Shown: positions 1 to 44,889 of the stretch, piece after piece
Layout of the letters: each line of letters opens with the position of its first letter
How positions within the stretch are numbered: the stretch's first letter is position 1
Virus record (IMG/VR): IMGVR_UViG_3300036820_000251
Location: 1-44,889 of that record
DNA length: 44,889 nt
From: a virus
Reading direction: 5' to 3' (one strand)
The notes under the pieces: model-generated
Databases searched by the model: none
What the model was told of the DNA's origin: nothing
Seen by the model: only the letters and a program-made list of their open reading frames with translations
Translations under genes and position numbers: made by a program

Positions 1-113
1 TCGGGGCAATATGCTGGTATGTCACCGGGGCCGCTCGCCGCGCATCCGCACGGATATTTGCGCGTCGTGAACAATCCGAAGTCTGATTGCAAATTCAACA
101 TGCTTGGCATCAT
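1..113 (-). CDS. 5' fragment of the lipoprotein-like gene (duplicate of 44763-44875)
   Basis: This is the first 37 codons of the gene seen complete at 44225-44875, repeated here only because the circle was opened inside it. The ATG is at 113-111. It is preceded by AAAAGGAAGCGCCC, which supplies a Shine-Dalgarno sequence and lies just past the stop codon of the 85-residue gene (127-129). In the circular genome the late operon therefore continues without a break from coordinate 127 into 44875. Confidence 0.9.
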   Translation of the reverse strand, partial: MMPSMLNLQSDFGLFTTRKYPCGCAASGPGDIPAYCP

Positions 114-127
114 GGGCGCTTCCTTTT
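1..127. repeat. Terminal direct repeat, left copy
   Basis: Bases 1-127 are identical to 44763-44889. The simplest reading is an assembly overlap that closes a circular or circularly permuted genome; 127 is also a common maximum assembler k-mer length. A genuine short terminal redundancy, as in T7-like phages, is the alternative. The repeat contains the 5' end of the lipoprotein gene whose full copy lies at the other end of the window. Confidence 0.95.
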
Positions 128-25469: not shown

Positions 25470-25874
25470 CTAGTTCGGCTTCGTCGGCGGGATTTCCAGA
25501 GTTTCGCGGCGCAGAAGCTTCTCGCGGAAGTCTTCGATCTCAGCCACGCTCGCATTCTCAAACTTGTCGGCGTTCGGCGCTGGCAGCCGTGGAGCTGGCT
25601 TCCCTTCGCCGTAGTGCAGGAACATCTCGGCATGCCGCGCGCTCCCCTTCATGGCTTGCCGGAGGCAATAATCCGCCAGTTTCTGCACGCCGGTTCGGCC
25701 GTCTTTGCCCACCTCTGCGGCCAGCTGTCTGCAGGCTTCAGCAAACTTAGCCGTACGCGGTCGACCACCGCCGCGATTGCCCGGTTTGAATTGCGTGGCC
25801 TTGCCAACGTCTGGCGATGGCCCTTTGAATGCCGATTGGTTGCCGTTTTTCACTTTCTTCGTTGTCCGGCCCAT
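25470..25874 (-). CDS. DUF5681-like basic protein, terminase-associated, 134 aa
   Basis: Residues 27-45 read Q-F-K-P-G-N-R-G-G-G-R-P-R-T, the hallmark of DUF5681-type proteins often found beside phage terminase genes. A helical domain follows, ending in a Pro-rich tail. The gene overlaps the terminase large subunit by 25 bases and has AAAGGG before its ATG. It may be a DNA-binding partner of the packaging motor, possibly the small terminase subunit, but the family has no settled function. Confidence 0.7.
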   Translation of the reverse strand: MGRTTKKVKNGNQSAFKGPSPDVGKATQFKPGNRGGGRPRTAKFAEACRQLAAEVGKDGRTGVQKLADYCLRQAMKGSARHAEMFLHYGEGKPAPRLPAPNADKFENASVAEIEDFREKLLRRETLEIPPTKPN

Positions 25875-27541
25875 ATGTGCCCTTTGCGAATCACAGCGTT
25901 ATTCACGAAGCCTGTTTGCGCGCGGCGCTCGGCTTCCTGCATCTTGAGCGTTGCCAGCGTTCTGGCGCTTCCTGCGACGGGCAGACCTTGCAGTCTTTCC
26001 TTCAGCCGCACATCGAACGGTTTGGCGGCTGGATCGAATGCTTTGCGCGACGCCACGGTGTATCGCGCGCTGTCGTATACGTCGTCCAGTTGCCCAGGAG
26101 TCTTCAGCACATCGCCCTGCTTCTTCGGATCGCACATCATGGCCGGAATCGCTCGCATCAGCAGCGGGCAAGTTGTGTCGTCGATGAGTATCCCGCACAC
26201 TTCCTCGTCGCTTGCAAGGATATACCGTTCGTCAAGGGCCGAGTAAAGCAGGGCTGCTCCGTCGATGCGGGAATTGAACGCAGGCCGAGCTCGAACTACG
26301 CCTTGCGCCACATAGACATCCCCCATTCGGGCGCCGCGCGAGAGTATGGGATCTTCAAAGCCAGCGTCGGGTGAGAGATACACGGCGTCAATCCGCTTTT
26401 TCTCGTCTTGCGGCGTGCGATCCATGATTTCAGCGGCCAGGGCGCGTTCGCCGAGTCCGCGATCGCTCCATTCGCGGTAAATGTACGGCAGTTTGACGGT
26501 GCCAGCTGCGTCGACCCACTTCCCGCCGTCTTGCCCCGGCTCCCATCGCGCTTTGATGTTGAGCTCGAGGAATGTGGCCCAATGAGTCGAAAAGAAATGC
26601 CCTGTGTCTCCGGCGATGTCCGTGCCGATCCAGATGGGCTGCCAGCGCTGCTCGTGCATCAGCTTCAGGCCCAGGTCGTGCGGCCACTCCGCAAGTTCTT
26701 TCACCCAATTCTGGAAGTAGGAGCCTTCGCCGATGCCGAAACGTCCTTCAACCCAGGCAGCTTTGATCGAGGCCGGCGCGGAAGCGAGAATCCGGCGGTA
26801 AGCGTCACCTTGGATCGTACCCTTCGCGTACGAGGGATTGGCGTCGATCGAGGCGAAGATGCCTTCATATTCTTCGGGCTTGTAGGATTCGGGATCGTCG
26901 CCGAGGGCCGGGGCTTTGGGTACGTCGCAGCCGAAGACGTGATTCATTTCATCCGAGCTGATGCCGACGGGATTGCCTCCGCCCTTCACCTGCGGCACGA
27001 TTATGCGGCTGTACTTGTCGCGCTCGATGGGCGTCCGCACGCTGCCAGCGATCTGTCGCCATTGCAGGTAAGGGAAGTCGCACCATTCGTCGATGTGCAG
27101 TTTCACCAGCTGCCGCGAAAGGTACTTCTTTACGTCTTTCTCTTCCTTGGCCGATTGCAGGTACACGCGATGCCCGTTCGGAAACAGGAAGTGAAGGCTT
27201 CCGGACTTTGCCACATAGCGGCCGCGGATTTCTCTTGGAAGTTCGAGCATGCGCGAAATGATCGTGCTTTCAAGCTCCGGCATGGTGCGGCGCATGATGA
27301 GCTGCGCTTCGCCGGGTATCGCATGCGCGGTGAAGATCGCATCCCACACGATGCTTTCGGTCGAGCCTTTGCCGCGATTGCCCCACAGGAATACGTACGG
27401 GCGCTGCGAAGTCAGGTATTGCCTTTGCGGCTCGTTCGGGAAGCCGGGGCGAGTGATCTCCGCGACAGGGTCGCCGTCGTCATCAACCCAAAACGCTTTG
27501 AAATTCTGGTGGTCAAGTACGGCGATCATGGTCCCACACAT
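25850..27541 (-). CDS. terL: Terminase large subunit (DNA-packaging ATPase/nuclease), 563 aa
   Basis: The ATPase part has a Walker A-like loop (G-N-R-G-K-G-S-T, about residues 54-61) and a Walker B strand ending in acidic residues (L-V-K-L-H-I-D-E-W). The nuclease part has I-G-T-D-I-A-G-D near residue 305 and D-A-V-Y-L-S-P-D-A-G near residue 385, the acidic residues expected for an RNase H-like packaging nuclease. It pumps and cuts DNA at the portal. The start was set at the ATG 27541, preceded by AAGGG at suitable spacing; the ATG at 27529 is an alternative. The start overlaps the small Cys-rich gene upstream by 29 bases. Confidence 0.9.
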   Translation of the reverse strand: MCGTMIAVLDHQNFKAFWVDDDGDPVAEITRPGFPNEPQRQYLTSQRPYVFLWGNRGKGSTESIVWDAIFTAHAIPGEAQLIMRRTMPELESTIISRMLELPREIRGRYVAKSGSLHFLFPNGHRVYLQSAKEEKDVKKYLSRQLVKLHIDEWCDFPYLQWRQIAGSVRTPIERDKYSRIIVPQVKGGGNPVGISSDEMNHVFGCDVPKAPALGDDPESYKPEEYEGIFASIDANPSYAKGTIQGDAYRRILASAPASIKAAWVEGRFGIGEGSYFQNWVKELAEWPHDLGLKLMHEQRWQPIWIGTDIAGDTGHFFSTHWATFLELNIKARWEPGQDGGKWVDAAGTVKLPYIYREWSDRGLGERALAAEIMDRTPQDEKKRIDAVYLSPDAGFEDPILSRGARMGDVYVAQGVVRARPAFNSRIDGAALLYSALDERYILASDEEVCGILIDDTTCPLLMRAIPAMMCDPKKQGDVLKTPGQLDDVYDSARYTVASRKAFDPAAKPFDVRLKERLQGLPVAGSARTLATLKMQEAERRAQTGFVNNAVIRKGHIWAGQRRK

Positions 27542-27668
27542 AATCGCGGCCCTTGGGCGGGATTTCACCGCAGCCGCATTGGCAGGTTTGGACGGTCTTT
27601 ACTTCGACGTGCGCGAGGTATTCGAGTTCCCGCAGAGTCTTCAAATCGATGCGGTCAGGCTCATACAC
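27513..27668 (-). CDS. Small Cys-rich protein with C-x-C-G-C-G motif, 51 aa
   Basis: The C-terminal half has C-Q-C-G-C-G-E-I-P followed by G-R-D-Y-V-W-D-H-D, a compact pattern seen in small phage proteins thought to bind zinc and related to HNH-type zinc knuckles. I chose the GTG at 27668, one base after the stop of the co-chaperonin gene (TGACGTG), with AGGCGG upstream. A longer frame exists but overlaps that gene. It sits immediately before terL, where HNH proteins often aid packaging; here the catalytic HNH residues are not complete. Confidence 0.6.
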   Translation of the reverse strand: MYEPDRIDLKTLRELEYLAHVEVKTVQTCQCGCGEIPPKGRDYVWDHDRRT

Positions 27669-27669
27669 G

Positions 27670-27969
27670 TCAGTCCGCCTTGGACAGATGCAGGCGAATG
27701 TCCGCGTCTTCGAGCAGCAGCATCTCTTTGATTTCATTCGCGGCAGAATCGTAGAGCTTCACGGTTGCGCCATACGCCGCGAATTCGTCGTAAAGAACTA
27801 GTTGTCCGACTTCGAGGTCTTTGGCGCACCTAGGCCCCAACGCGCGGATATAGCCGAATTTTTCGCGCTGGCTCATTCCTGGCAGAAGGCAGAAGGCCGA
27901 GCTGCTATGCGTGGCTGAGACCGGTTCGATCAGGACGTTCTTGCCGCGCGGCGTTCCTGCGTAACTCAT
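27670..27969 (-). CDS. GroES-like co-chaperonin, 99 aa
   Basis: The length matches bacterial GroES (97 residues). In order: a first strand G-K-N-V-L-I-E-P-V (9-17), a mobile loop with T-H-S-S-S-A-F-C-L-L-P-G (20-31) whose hydrophobic F-C-L-L stands in for the Ile-Val-Leu that contacts GroEL, F-G-Y-I-R-A-L-G (38-45) for the R-G-E-V-L-A-V-G strand, L-E-V-G-Q-L-V-L-Y (52-60) and E-M-L-L-L-E-D-A-D-I (82-91). It should cap the GroEL ring encoded just upstream. The ATG overlaps the GroEL stop (ATGA), so expression is coupled. An in-frame start 159 bases earlier would only add GroEL-overlapping sequence. Confidence 0.82.
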   Translation of the reverse strand: MSYAGTPRGKNVLIEPVSATHSSSAFCLLPGMSQREKFGYIRALGPRCAKDLEVGQLVLYDEFAAYGATVKLYDSAANEIKEMLLLEDADIRLHLSKAD

Positions 27970-29588
27970 CTCTGCCCAGCCCTTGCGCCCATCTCGAAAG
28001 CCTTCATTGGGTCTGTGGGCGTGTTGATTACGAGACTTTCTGTCAGCAGGATTTGGCAGGCCACGCTCGCCGCATTCACGAGGCATGAGCTCACTACGCT
28101 CGAGGGATCGAGCACGCCGGATTTCCAAGGGTCGCGTATCCGTCCGGCGCGGATATCGTACACGGACCCAGGAGAGTTCATTAGCTTGCTAGCGATAATG
28201 CACATCGCGGCTTCTGTCTCTCCAGCGTTCCGACACAAAGTCCCGAAGAGCGTAGAGCAGGCATCCGAAAGCAGGGCTGCTGCTTGAGTCGAGAGTTGCT
28301 TGTAAACTTTATGGCTCTCGCGTAGAAGTGATGCTCCCCCTCCCGGCACGACGCCTTTATCCCGTGCACCACGCACCGCGTAGATCGCATCCTCTGCGCG
28401 CAACTTCAGGTCTTCCAGTTCAATTCGCGTCGGCGCGCCCAGCGAGAGGAGCACGATCTTTCCGCCGAATCTCGCCAGCCTTTCTTCGATGCGGTGAACG
28501 TCTTTCTTGCGGTCCTGATTTGCGATCAGCGCGCCCATTTGCGCCACCATGATGTCGGCGCGCGTTCGGATGGCGTCCGGATCGCCCATGCCGCCGATGA
28601 TCGTTGTGGCGTGCCGCGTCACGATTACGCGCTCGGCCTGGCCCAGATCATGCAGAGTGAGTTTGTCGAGCATTTCCGTGCGCCCGGTTTCCTGCAGGAT
28701 AGCTTCGCCGCCCGTCGCCACCGCGATGTCGGTGAGCAGGTCTTTCTTGTACTCGCCGATCAGTGAAGGCTTCACGACGCAGACGGGGAATTTCGCCCTT
28801 TGAGCCACTAGGTTGCGAAGCGCTTCGCCATCGCAATCGTCCGCGATGATAAGTAGCGAACGCTGCTCTTTCTCGAAAACGGGCTTGAAGATATTTACGA
28901 GCAGATTGTTCAGGATCGAGAGTTTGCGATCCAGCAGCAAAATGTACGGCCGCTCAAGGACTACACGCTGTCTCTCCGCATCGTTCACGAAAAGATGTGA
29001 GATGTAGCCTGAGGGAATCTCCATGCCTTCGCTCACGCGAATCGAGGATGCCACGTTCTGCGATTCCTCAGCGCCCACTAGACCGCGCTCGCCAGCCTTA
29101 TCGAAGGCTTCCGCGATCAGCGTGCCGAGCTCGACATCGTTCGACGCCAGCAGCGCCACTTTGAGCGCGGAATCGCCATCGAGCGGCACGGCTGCGCTCG
29201 CGAGATTGTCGCGAATCGCCGCGACCGCTTCCTCGATTTCCCTCTTGAGCACGACGGGATTGGCCCCAGCATCCACGGCATCGAGGGCGCGCTGCGCGAT
29301 GGCTCGGGTCAGAATGGCGACGCTCGTGGTGCTGTCGCCGGCCTCGAGGGCTTGCTGCATCGATACGCCCTGAATCAGGCGGCAGCCTACCGCGTCGAGC
29401 TCGTCCTCCAGTTCGATATTGCGCAGCACGGTAAAGCCGTCGCGCGAGGAAATAGGGTCGCGCATGGGACGAATGATGAGCGCGTTCCGGCCGGCCGGAC
29501 CCAGCGTAGTGGACACACAGGCCACTACCAGATCGATGCCGCGCATGATCGCCTTGCGAGCTTCGGAACCATAGAGAATGGTTTTCAT
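27966..29588 (-). CDS. groEL: GroEL-type chaperonin, 540 aa
   Basis: A full-length group I chaperonin: T-T-L-G-P-A-G-R-N (27-35), S-R-D-G-F-T-V with the D50 equivalent of D52, the ATP motif G-D-S-T-T (84-88; usually G-D-G-T-T), G-Y-I-S-H-L-F in the apical domain (194-200), L-L-I-I-A-D-D (245-251), A-E-D-A (D400, equivalent to catalytic D398) and G-V-V-P-G-G-G (412-418). The Gly-Gly-Met C-terminal tail of bacterial GroEL is missing. The protein should refold viral proteins with the GroES-like partner downstream. The stop of the small gene upstream overlaps its ATG. The sequence is well diverged from host GroEL, which argues against recent capture. Confidence 0.95.
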   Translation of the reverse strand: MKTILYGSEARKAIMRGIDLVVACVSTTLGPAGRNALIIRPMRDPISSRDGFTVLRNIELEDELDAVGCRLIQGVSMQQALEAGDSTTSVAILTRAIAQRALDAVDAGANPVVLKREIEEAVAAIRDNLASAAVPLDGDSALKVALLASNDVELGTLIAEAFDKAGERGLVGAEESQNVASSIRVSEGMEIPSGYISHLFVNDAERQRVVLERPYILLLDRKLSILNNLLVNIFKPVFEKEQRSLLIIADDCDGEALRNLVAQRAKFPVCVVKPSLIGEYKKDLLTDIAVATGGEAILQETGRTEMLDKLTLHDLGQAERVIVTRHATTIIGGMGDPDAIRTRADIMVAQMGALIANQDRKKDVHRIEERLARFGGKIVLLSLGAPTRIELEDLKLRAEDAIYAVRGARDKGVVPGGGASLLRESHKVYKQLSTQAAALLSDACSTLFGTLCRNAGETEAAMCIIASKLMNSPGSVYDIRAGRIRDPWKSGVLDPSSVVSSCLVNAASVACQILLTESLVINTPTDPMKAFEMGARAGQR

Positions 29589-29866
29589 GGTTTGGCGTCG
29601 CCCTTCGTTGAGACGATGTGCGTATGCTTGGCCGCTTCGGCTTTCGCGTTGATGGCGGCGATCCCCGCCTGAAGCTGCTCGCGCACCATATTGATTTGCT
29701 GCGTGAGTACGGAAAGATAGATCAGCGCGCAGGATCCTTGGAGCTTCCGGGCTTCGGCCGCCTGTTCTGCGGTGATTAGGCCGCGCTTCGCCAGCTTGTC
29801 GATCACTTTCAAATTCTCGTCGACCATCGTGAGGTCTGGTATCTTCGTTCCGGGTGCGTCAGCCAT
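29585..29866 (-). CDS. Small helical protein, 93 aa
   Basis: An N-terminal M-A-D-A-P-G-T-K-I-P-D-L-T lead is followed by two long helices (about residues 15-45 and 50-80) with Leu/Ile/Gln spacing suited to a coiled-coil or four-helix dimer. No family was recognised. I chose the ATG at 29866. It overlaps the sigma-like gene by 8 bases upstream and the GroEL start downstream, so it lies in the same coupled operon and could assist either product. Confidence 0.65.
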   Translation of the reverse strand: MADAPGTKIPDLTMVDENLKVIDKLAKRGLITAEQAAEARKLQGSCALIYLSVLTQQINMVREQLQAGIAAINAKAEAAKHTHIVSTKGDAKP

Positions 29867-30377
29867 TCTCCATCCCCTCTCGCAACTGTTCGAGCGCTTC
29901 GTCGAAAACCGATTGCGCGGTCTGCACGTGGCAGCCGAGCTTGTTGGCAATCCATTCCCAGCGGTGCGCGGCCGCTCCATTCAGTCCGAAGCGCATCTCG
30001 ACGATGATTCGCGAGCGCTGCGGCAAATCGTTCAGGACTTTCAGCATCCGTTCTTCGTCTACGAAACTGTAAGTTACCGATCCGCGATTGGGAGGCGGTT
30101 CGGGATCGATTGCGAATTCATGGAAGCCGATCGGCATCCGATCGACCGCGTCGCGAATCGCGCCCTTTCTGAATCCGCGCGGCAGATAGCTTCGCAGTTC
30201 GGCGAGCACGGCGTTCTTCGCGACCGTGACCTGATATCCGATGCTCTTGCCCTGCACGCCGCACAGCGCCACGCATGCCGCTTGGATCAGATCGCGATCG
30301 GTACCAGGCGGCAGATGGTAGGTGCGCTGCATCTTACCCGCCAAGCCCGTAACCGTTTTCATCAGCTGCGGGCTCAT
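29859..30377 (-). CDS. Sigma-70-family-like transcription factor, 172 aa
   Basis: The N-terminal half resembles sigma region 2 (D-R-D-L-I-Q-A-A-C-V-A-L, 27-38; then A-V-L-A-E-L-R-S-Y-L-P-R-G-F-R-K-G, 56-72, like the E-L-R...P-R..R segment of sigma28/sigmaF types). The C-terminal half matches region 4: L-N-D-L-P-Q-R-S-R-I-I-V-E-M-R-F-G-L-N-G (115-134), then a helix-turn-helix (W-I-A-N-K-L-G, 142-148) and A-L-E-Q-L-R-E-G (161-168). It should direct host RNA polymerase to phage promoters. Region 2 is short, so a sigma appropriator role is also possible. Its ATG overlaps the upstream gene's stop. Confidence 0.75.
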   Translation of the reverse strand: MSPQLMKTVTGLAGKMQRTYHLPPGTDRDLIQAACVALCGVQGKSIGYQVTVAKNAVLAELRSYLPRGFRKGAIRDAVDRMPIGFHEFAIDPEPPPNRGSVTYSFVDEERMLKVLNDLPQRSRIIVEMRFGLNGAAAHRWEWIANKLGCHVQTAQSVFDEALEQLREGMENG

Positions 30378-44224: not shown

Positions 44225-44875
44225 TCAGAGCCCGTACGCCGGAACGCCGACGCGATGCGCGAGCGCCACAAGGTCGTGATGCGACGGCGGATCGGCGGCG
44301 ATCTGCGGCTGCGGGTGCGTGGCGAGTTGGTAGATCGTGAGAGCCCCGTTCACCGCGAGAATGGCTGCGGTTGCCCACAGTTCCACTTTGGCTTGCGATG
44401 CCGGGCTCAGGATGCGAAGCTGCGCGAGCTCGGCTGGACTGGTGAGCCCCGCCGCGAATACGTTGAAGCACGCGCCGAACGTCGCCACATTGCCGTTCGT
44501 TCCGCCAGCCGTGATGCAGGAAGCGAGCTGCGTGTCGAGCGTCTGGCCCGTCGCGAGCCACTGAGAGGCAATCGGCTGATCGGCGGCCGGCAGAGCCGGG
44601 ACATCGGCCTGCACGATATTCAGGATTCCCGCGATGACGACTTGGAACTTCGTCGCGGTCGTGTATGCCGATTGGCTGCAGCCTACGCAAGAAAGCGCGA
44701 GCAGGACGGGTACGGCGAGAAATCGCAGGAGCCAAGGTTTTTTTGGCGACGGTCTGTCGTGATCGGGGCAATATGCTGGTATGTCACCGGGGCCGCTCGC
44801 CGCGCATCCGCACGGATATTTGCGCGTCGTGAACAATCCGAAGTCTGATTGCAAATTCAACATGCTTGGCATCAT
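44225..44875 (-). CDS. Envelope-anchored protein with Cys-rich head, 216 aa
   Basis: An N-terminal Cys-rich stretch (C-G-C-A-A-S and C-P-D-H near residues 22-39) is followed by a hydrophobic segment W-L-L-R-F-L-A-V-P-V-L-L-A-L-S-C-V-G-C (48-66), which may be an anchor or a non-standard lipoprotein signal. The remaining 150 residues are Ala/Thr-rich helices. It starts at the ATG 44875, which is coordinate 113 in the other copy of the terminal repeat, with AAGGAAGC upstream. It leads the lysis-like block 44875-42512. Confidence 0.75.
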   Translation of the reverse strand: MMPSMLNLQSDFGLFTTRKYPCGCAASGPGDIPAYCPDHDRPSPKKPWLLRFLAVPVLLALSCVGCSQSAYTTATKFQVVIAGILNIVQADVPALPAADQPIASQWLATGQTLDTQLASCITAGGTNGNVATFGACFNVFAAGLTSPAELAQLRILSPASQAKVELWATAAILAVNGALTIYQLATHPQPQIAADPPSHHDLVALAHRVGVPAYGL

Positions 44876-44889
44876 GGGCGCTTCCTTTT
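44763..44889. repeat. Terminal direct repeat, right copy
   Basis: Identical to bases 1-127. See the left copy. It shows that the molecule closes on itself; the late operon runs across the join on the minus strand. Confidence 0.95.

Follow-up and report, generated by a model that had tools for sequence, protein, structure and literature searches.

The stretch of viral DNA analysed here (the window; 44,889 bp, IMG/VR record IMGVR_UViG_3300036820_000251) carries a groEL gene followed on the same strand by a short groES-like open reading frame, the stop codon of the one and the start codon of the other overlapping in the sequence ATGA, an arrangement suggestive of translational coupling. The position of the pair relative to terL and to the gene run upstream, and the other features discussed below, are given in Table 1. 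Because an exact 127-bp direct repeat is found at both of its ends, the window is probably a complete genome of ~44.76 kb, in keeping with the ~45 kb assigned to it in an earlier description drawn from the letters alone (the sequence-only reading). Among the proteins scanned with PHROGs and Pfam none was recognised as a tail protein, so that the podovirus-like character proposed in that reading is tentative.

Table 1. Coordinates of features in the window referred to in the text.
Feature	Positions	Strand	Evidence or remark
127-bp exact terminal repeat, left copy	1..127		
Candidate major capsid protein, 456 aa	13272..14642	-	Candidate client
Candidate portal protein, 810 aa	14746..17178	-	
terL, terminase large subunit	25850..27568	-	PHROG 979, E 1.9e-12; next recognised gene downstream of the groES-like ORF
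groES-like co-chaperonin, 99 aa	27670..27969	-	Roof loop 8 residues; mobile loop VSATHSSSAFCLLPGMSQREKF
ATGA stop-start overlap	27966..27969	-	groEL stop / groES start
groEL, group I chaperonin subunit, 540 aa	27966..29588	-	Pfam, PHROG, NCBIfam, solved structures
94-aa ORF	29585..29869	-	4-base overlap with groEL start
Sigma-70 region-4-like protein, 172 aa	29859..30377	-	Same gene run, upstream; PHROG 351, E 7e-5, weak
NAD-dependent epimerase/dehydratase, 289 aa	31589..32458	-	PF01370, E 5e-39
RecT-family recombinase, 397 aa	34636..35829	-	PF03837, E 7e-13
127-bp exact terminal repeat, right copy	44763..44889		

As judged from its sequence, the groEL product is unambiguously a full-length three-domain group I chaperonin (GroEL/Cpn60). 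It scores above the cut-off of PF00118 (E 3.5e-48), matches PHROG 5725 'chaperonin groEL' over residues 2-525 (E 3.6e-105) and NCBIfam GroEL at E about 1e-119 (over the NF009487 cut-off and under the strict one of TIGR02348), and corresponds over its full length to GroELs of solved structure. Identity to E. coli GroEL is ~36%, and the maximum among all proteins compared is 39%. The catalytic aspartates D52, D87 and D398 are all present, as are G414-G416, and the sequence-only reading was thus right in describing a complete GroEL with its key ATPase residues. At other positions the protein has changed: the ATP-site loop GDGTTT has become GDSTTS, one residue is deleted at S151, G375 is replaced (G375K) and the R197/E386 pair is lost; because of these alterations, and of the very long branch on which the protein sits in the GroEL tree (3-4 changes per column), it is possible that its activity is reduced or altered. 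The GGM tail is absent. The inter-ring contact residues K105, E434, R452 and E461 are not conserved, which would be compatible with a single ring, though these residues vary in other GroELs too. On the apical face Y199, S201, F204, L234, L259 and V263 are unchanged and three positions are substituted (Y203L, L237F, V264A); these positions are substrate and GroES binding sites of GroEL, and most residues contacting GroES are retained.

The identity of the 99-residue downstream product required independent support, because its match to Pfam Cpn10 (18.8 bits, E 0.0017) falls below the curated cut-off of 21.1—a threshold, not a biological feature—and because a search of PDB sequences with it returned no match. 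A profile of seven sister lids from which the window's own was left out picks up this ORF with E 7e-19 (62 bits), as against E 5 for the next ORF in the window and 5 bits for the best of 1000 shuffles. Lids from seven of ten records of the same phage family pass the PF00166 cut-off, among them an orthologue in the sister record G001 which is 37% identical to the window protein and matches PHROG 3188, co-chaperonin GroES. The AlphaFold single-chain model of the window protein (pLDDT 84, its mobile loop modelled with low confidence) resembles Mtb Cpn10 (Z 10.4), GroES (Z about 9.4-10) and T4 gp31 (Z about 9), while unrelated oxidoreductases reach 6.5 or lower, the alignment that feeds the model including true GroES sequences and so leaning it towards the GroES fold. 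Profile and model together confirm, indirectly, that the ORF encodes a GroES-fold co-chaperonin; a GroES below Pfam's cut-off can be recovered through its relatives. The mobile loop carries a hydrophobic motif, FCLLP in the window and LVLP or LILP in the sister lids. The sequence-only reading had proposed a ring-and-lid pair, with a 99-residue GroES-like protein translated through the ATGA overlap, and had named as grounds for abandoning it a lid without the GroES fold or an apical domain unable to bind one; the fold matches, the motif is in place and the apical contacts are mostly kept, so that the proposal stands.

One trait of the lid had been missed in that reading. The roof segment, taken as the GroES stretch that is bounded by the AVG and VGD motifs and forms the roof hairpin, is 7-8 aa long in all eight family lids compared (8 aa in the window). 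Its length in E. coli is 16; nearly all bacterial lids have 16 or 11 residues there, and most of the viral lids compared have 16-17. The model of the window lid has no strand at residues 45-56. Sequence and model thus both point to a roofless lid, like gp31 of T4. The mobile loop of gp31 is a lengthened one (22 residues versus 16; PMC6318259), whereas that of the window lid, and of the family lids generally, is not extended but about GroES length. Lids of G001-G004 and G007 (loci L112, L104, L105, L106 and L117) bear N-terminal extensions of 66-122 residues, those of G001-G004 having in common a GD.LASG motif near the start; the window lid has no such extension, and a search of the rest of the window for one gave nothing.

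The family was assembled by searching IMG/VR with the 810-aa and 456-aa proteins common to the window and G001, which yielded four large sister records (G001, 45,804 bp; G002, 42,250; G003, 45,330; G004, 45,364) and five shorter fragments, G005-G009. A GenBank phage set contained no relative of either protein, and the window accordingly belongs to an unclassified ~45-kb phage family absent from that set. Plasmids searched for relatives of the 456-aa protein yielded none. Orthologues of terL are present in all nine family records compared. What is new is that every large record of this family (5/5 of those of 42-46 kb) has both GroEL and GroES, the lid being roofless throughout. With fragments included, GroEL is found in eight of ten records and the lid in nine, the two without GroEL being fragments of 8.3 and 35.6 kb, where its absence is no evidence of loss; G006 and G009 have near-identical GroEL and lid genes. 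In the window and G001-G004 groEL precedes groES, whereas G006, G008 and G009 have the reverse order. In these last three and in the window terL comes just downstream of the locus, but in G001-G004 the pair lies away from terL; in G001 the two genes are in addition separated by a 444-aa ORF (L013:6603-7937) with GIY-YIG, NUMOD3 and DNA methyltransferase matches, which looks like a homing element fused to a methyltransferase. Because the pair is found away from terL in the large sisters and is split by this ORF in one of them, tight coupling of the two genes is not needed.

In a tree the family GroELs group as a single clade (SH-aLRT 98), still supported at 93 and 95 after removal of one or the other half of the relatives; its survival under both omissions argues against long-branch attraction as its source. 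Two Acidobacteriota sequences adjoin the clade (fork support 83) and the window protein moves when G001-G004 are withheld; we make no claim for Acidobacteriota as donor or host. Between G001 and G003, GroEL has dN 0.12 and dS 1.8, the latter near saturation, which indicates purifying selection on GroEL in the sisters; the window protein has no relative close enough for the comparison.

A groEL-groES pair in small or mid-sized phages is already known, and the sequence-only reading overstated its case in calling one unusual in a genome of this size. Flavobacterium podovirus isolates of about 60 kb (vB_FspP_elemo, MT497098, and relatives) likewise have groEL followed directly by groES, with a full-length ring protein and a lid whose roof segment is 7 residues; they belong to a different phage group, their GroEL being only 32% identical to the window's and outside the family clade, and their pair does not adjoin terL within the stretch seen. 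The complete circular genome MW202566 (Caudoviricetes sp. cthkR962; 38,956 bp) has an mhsp60-groEL pair shortly upstream of terL, as in the window, but here the lid gene lies upstream of the ring gene, the roof segment is of full length (17 aa) and the GroEL is 33% identical. More broadly, published surveys record GroEL in marine viruses of archaea and Bacteroidetes (PMC5332604) and, as transcript and peptide, in soil viruses (PMC8390657). A GroEL is encoded in over 500 viral contig stretches, and an adjacent lid is present at ~96 of the 159 viral GroEL loci examined, a sample made up of two overlapping scans in which some loci stop at the boundary of a provirus and could belong to the host. 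At the start of loci L006, L009, L049, L071, L074 and L076, all from IMG/VR genome-assembly records, GroEL lies at the very edge of the predicted provirus; such GroELs are probably host groEL genes, and the viral counts are inflated for that reason. When viral contigs were scanned with the window GroEL and lid as lone sequences there were no matches, and alignments were required.

Other known systems may also be compared. With E. coli GroEL-GroES the window pair shares the fold, the catalytic aspartates and most apical contacts, but its gene order is reversed, it lacks the GGM tail, its roof loop is short, and the ring-ring and R197/E386 residues are changed. T4 gp31 has the GroES fold and no roof loops, and serves phage morphogenesis through the capsid protein gp23 (PMC6318259), but T4 uses the GroEL of its host whereas the window phage encodes its own. 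The giant phages EL, OBP and AR9 also encode relatives of GroEL; theirs are reported to act without a co-chaperonin (PMC9598537, PMC7185714), whereas the window phage has a lid gene.

We favour, at a probability of about 0.72, a phage-dedicated group I chaperonin, in which a GroEL ring and a cognate roofless lid act on a virion protein. In outline, groEL and groES would probably be expressed late in infection with the late genes; GroEL subunits would assemble into an ATP-hydrolysing, seven-fold ring; a heptameric GroES-type lid, the product of the gene downstream, would dock through its mobile loop on the apical domains of the ring; and the missing roof loops would leave a wide opening atop the closed chamber, as with T4 gp31, the chamber serving to fold the virion protein. 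More tentatively, and in our view rather improbably as a whole, the two-part chaperonin with its roofless lid, possibly a single ring, may be an open-topped cage fixed family-wide for one large virion protein.

By analogy with T4 (PMC6318259) and lambda (PMC9598537), the best candidate for such a client is the capsid protein, most plausibly the 456-aa product. Assignment of the latter as capsid rests on the match of one of the nine members of its protein family to PHROG 14242 'major head protein' (E 2.9e-6), since its AlphaFold model reaches a pLDDT of only 37; the neighbouring 810-aa protein is a candidate portal on a weak match, again by one member of nine, to PHROG 1216 (E 0.0087). In T4, gp23 at ~56 kDa already exceeds the GroEL-GroES cage, and the wider opening left by the roofless gp31 is thought to aid its folding (PMC6318259). 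The 1290-residue hub put forward in the sequence-only reading, at ~140 kDa, far exceeds gp23 in size and is too large for a closed cage, and is for that reason an unlikely client if folding proceeds by encapsulation; the companion suggestion, that the host system cannot fold the virion protein concerned, is an inference. Of that interpretation as a whole, which is partly supported, the ring-lid pair survives, with conservation in the family and, in the window and three fragments, the place just before terL as supporting context; its exceptionality does not survive, and its largest client is unlikely.

The strong divergence of the window GroEL, with its altered ATP loop and allosteric positions, could be taken to mean that the lid acts mainly with host GroEL, as gp31 does (PMC6318259), the phage's own GroEL serving separately as a holdase or being a partner in decay; one fragment, G007, has a lid and no GroEL in its 35.6 kb. 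Against this stand a full-length GroEL with D52, D87 and D398, its presence in all five large records, strong purifying selection in the sisters and the overlap of the two genes in the window, and we regard this explanation as unlikely. Slightly less probable still is a general auxiliary chaperone that relieves infection stress for host and phage proteins alike, with no dedicated virion client: GroELs do occur in many unrelated phages, scattered among bacterial ones (PMC5332604), but retention throughout the family, a common short roof loop and, in part of the family, adjacency to terL suggest a specific client.

Loss of the R197-E386 pair has also been reported for OBP (PMC9598537), and this, with the unconserved inter-ring residues, might place the window GroEL with the EL/OBP/AR9 type that needs no lid, the small ORF being functionally unrelated. 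A GroES homologue is nevertheless found beside or near GroEL throughout the family, and the window GroEL is 36% identical over its length to that of E. coli, compared with about 25% for EL (PMC9598537); we consider a lidless chaperonin very improbable. In this phage family the genes for a ring, a roofless lid and a candidate capsid protein occur together within ~45 kb. Why some phages carry a full chaperonin can thus be addressed with three or four proteins, and so can a second question, whether a lid that has lost its roof admits a broader set of clients, an idea put forward for gp31.

Other genes in this part of the window may be recorded here. The sigma-70 region-4-like protein, encoded two genes upstream of groEL, is perhaps a phage sigma factor. 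Further upstream lie the RecT-family recombinase and the epimerase/dehydratase, a sugar-nucleotide enzyme common to the window and G001, whose orthologue is 54% identical.
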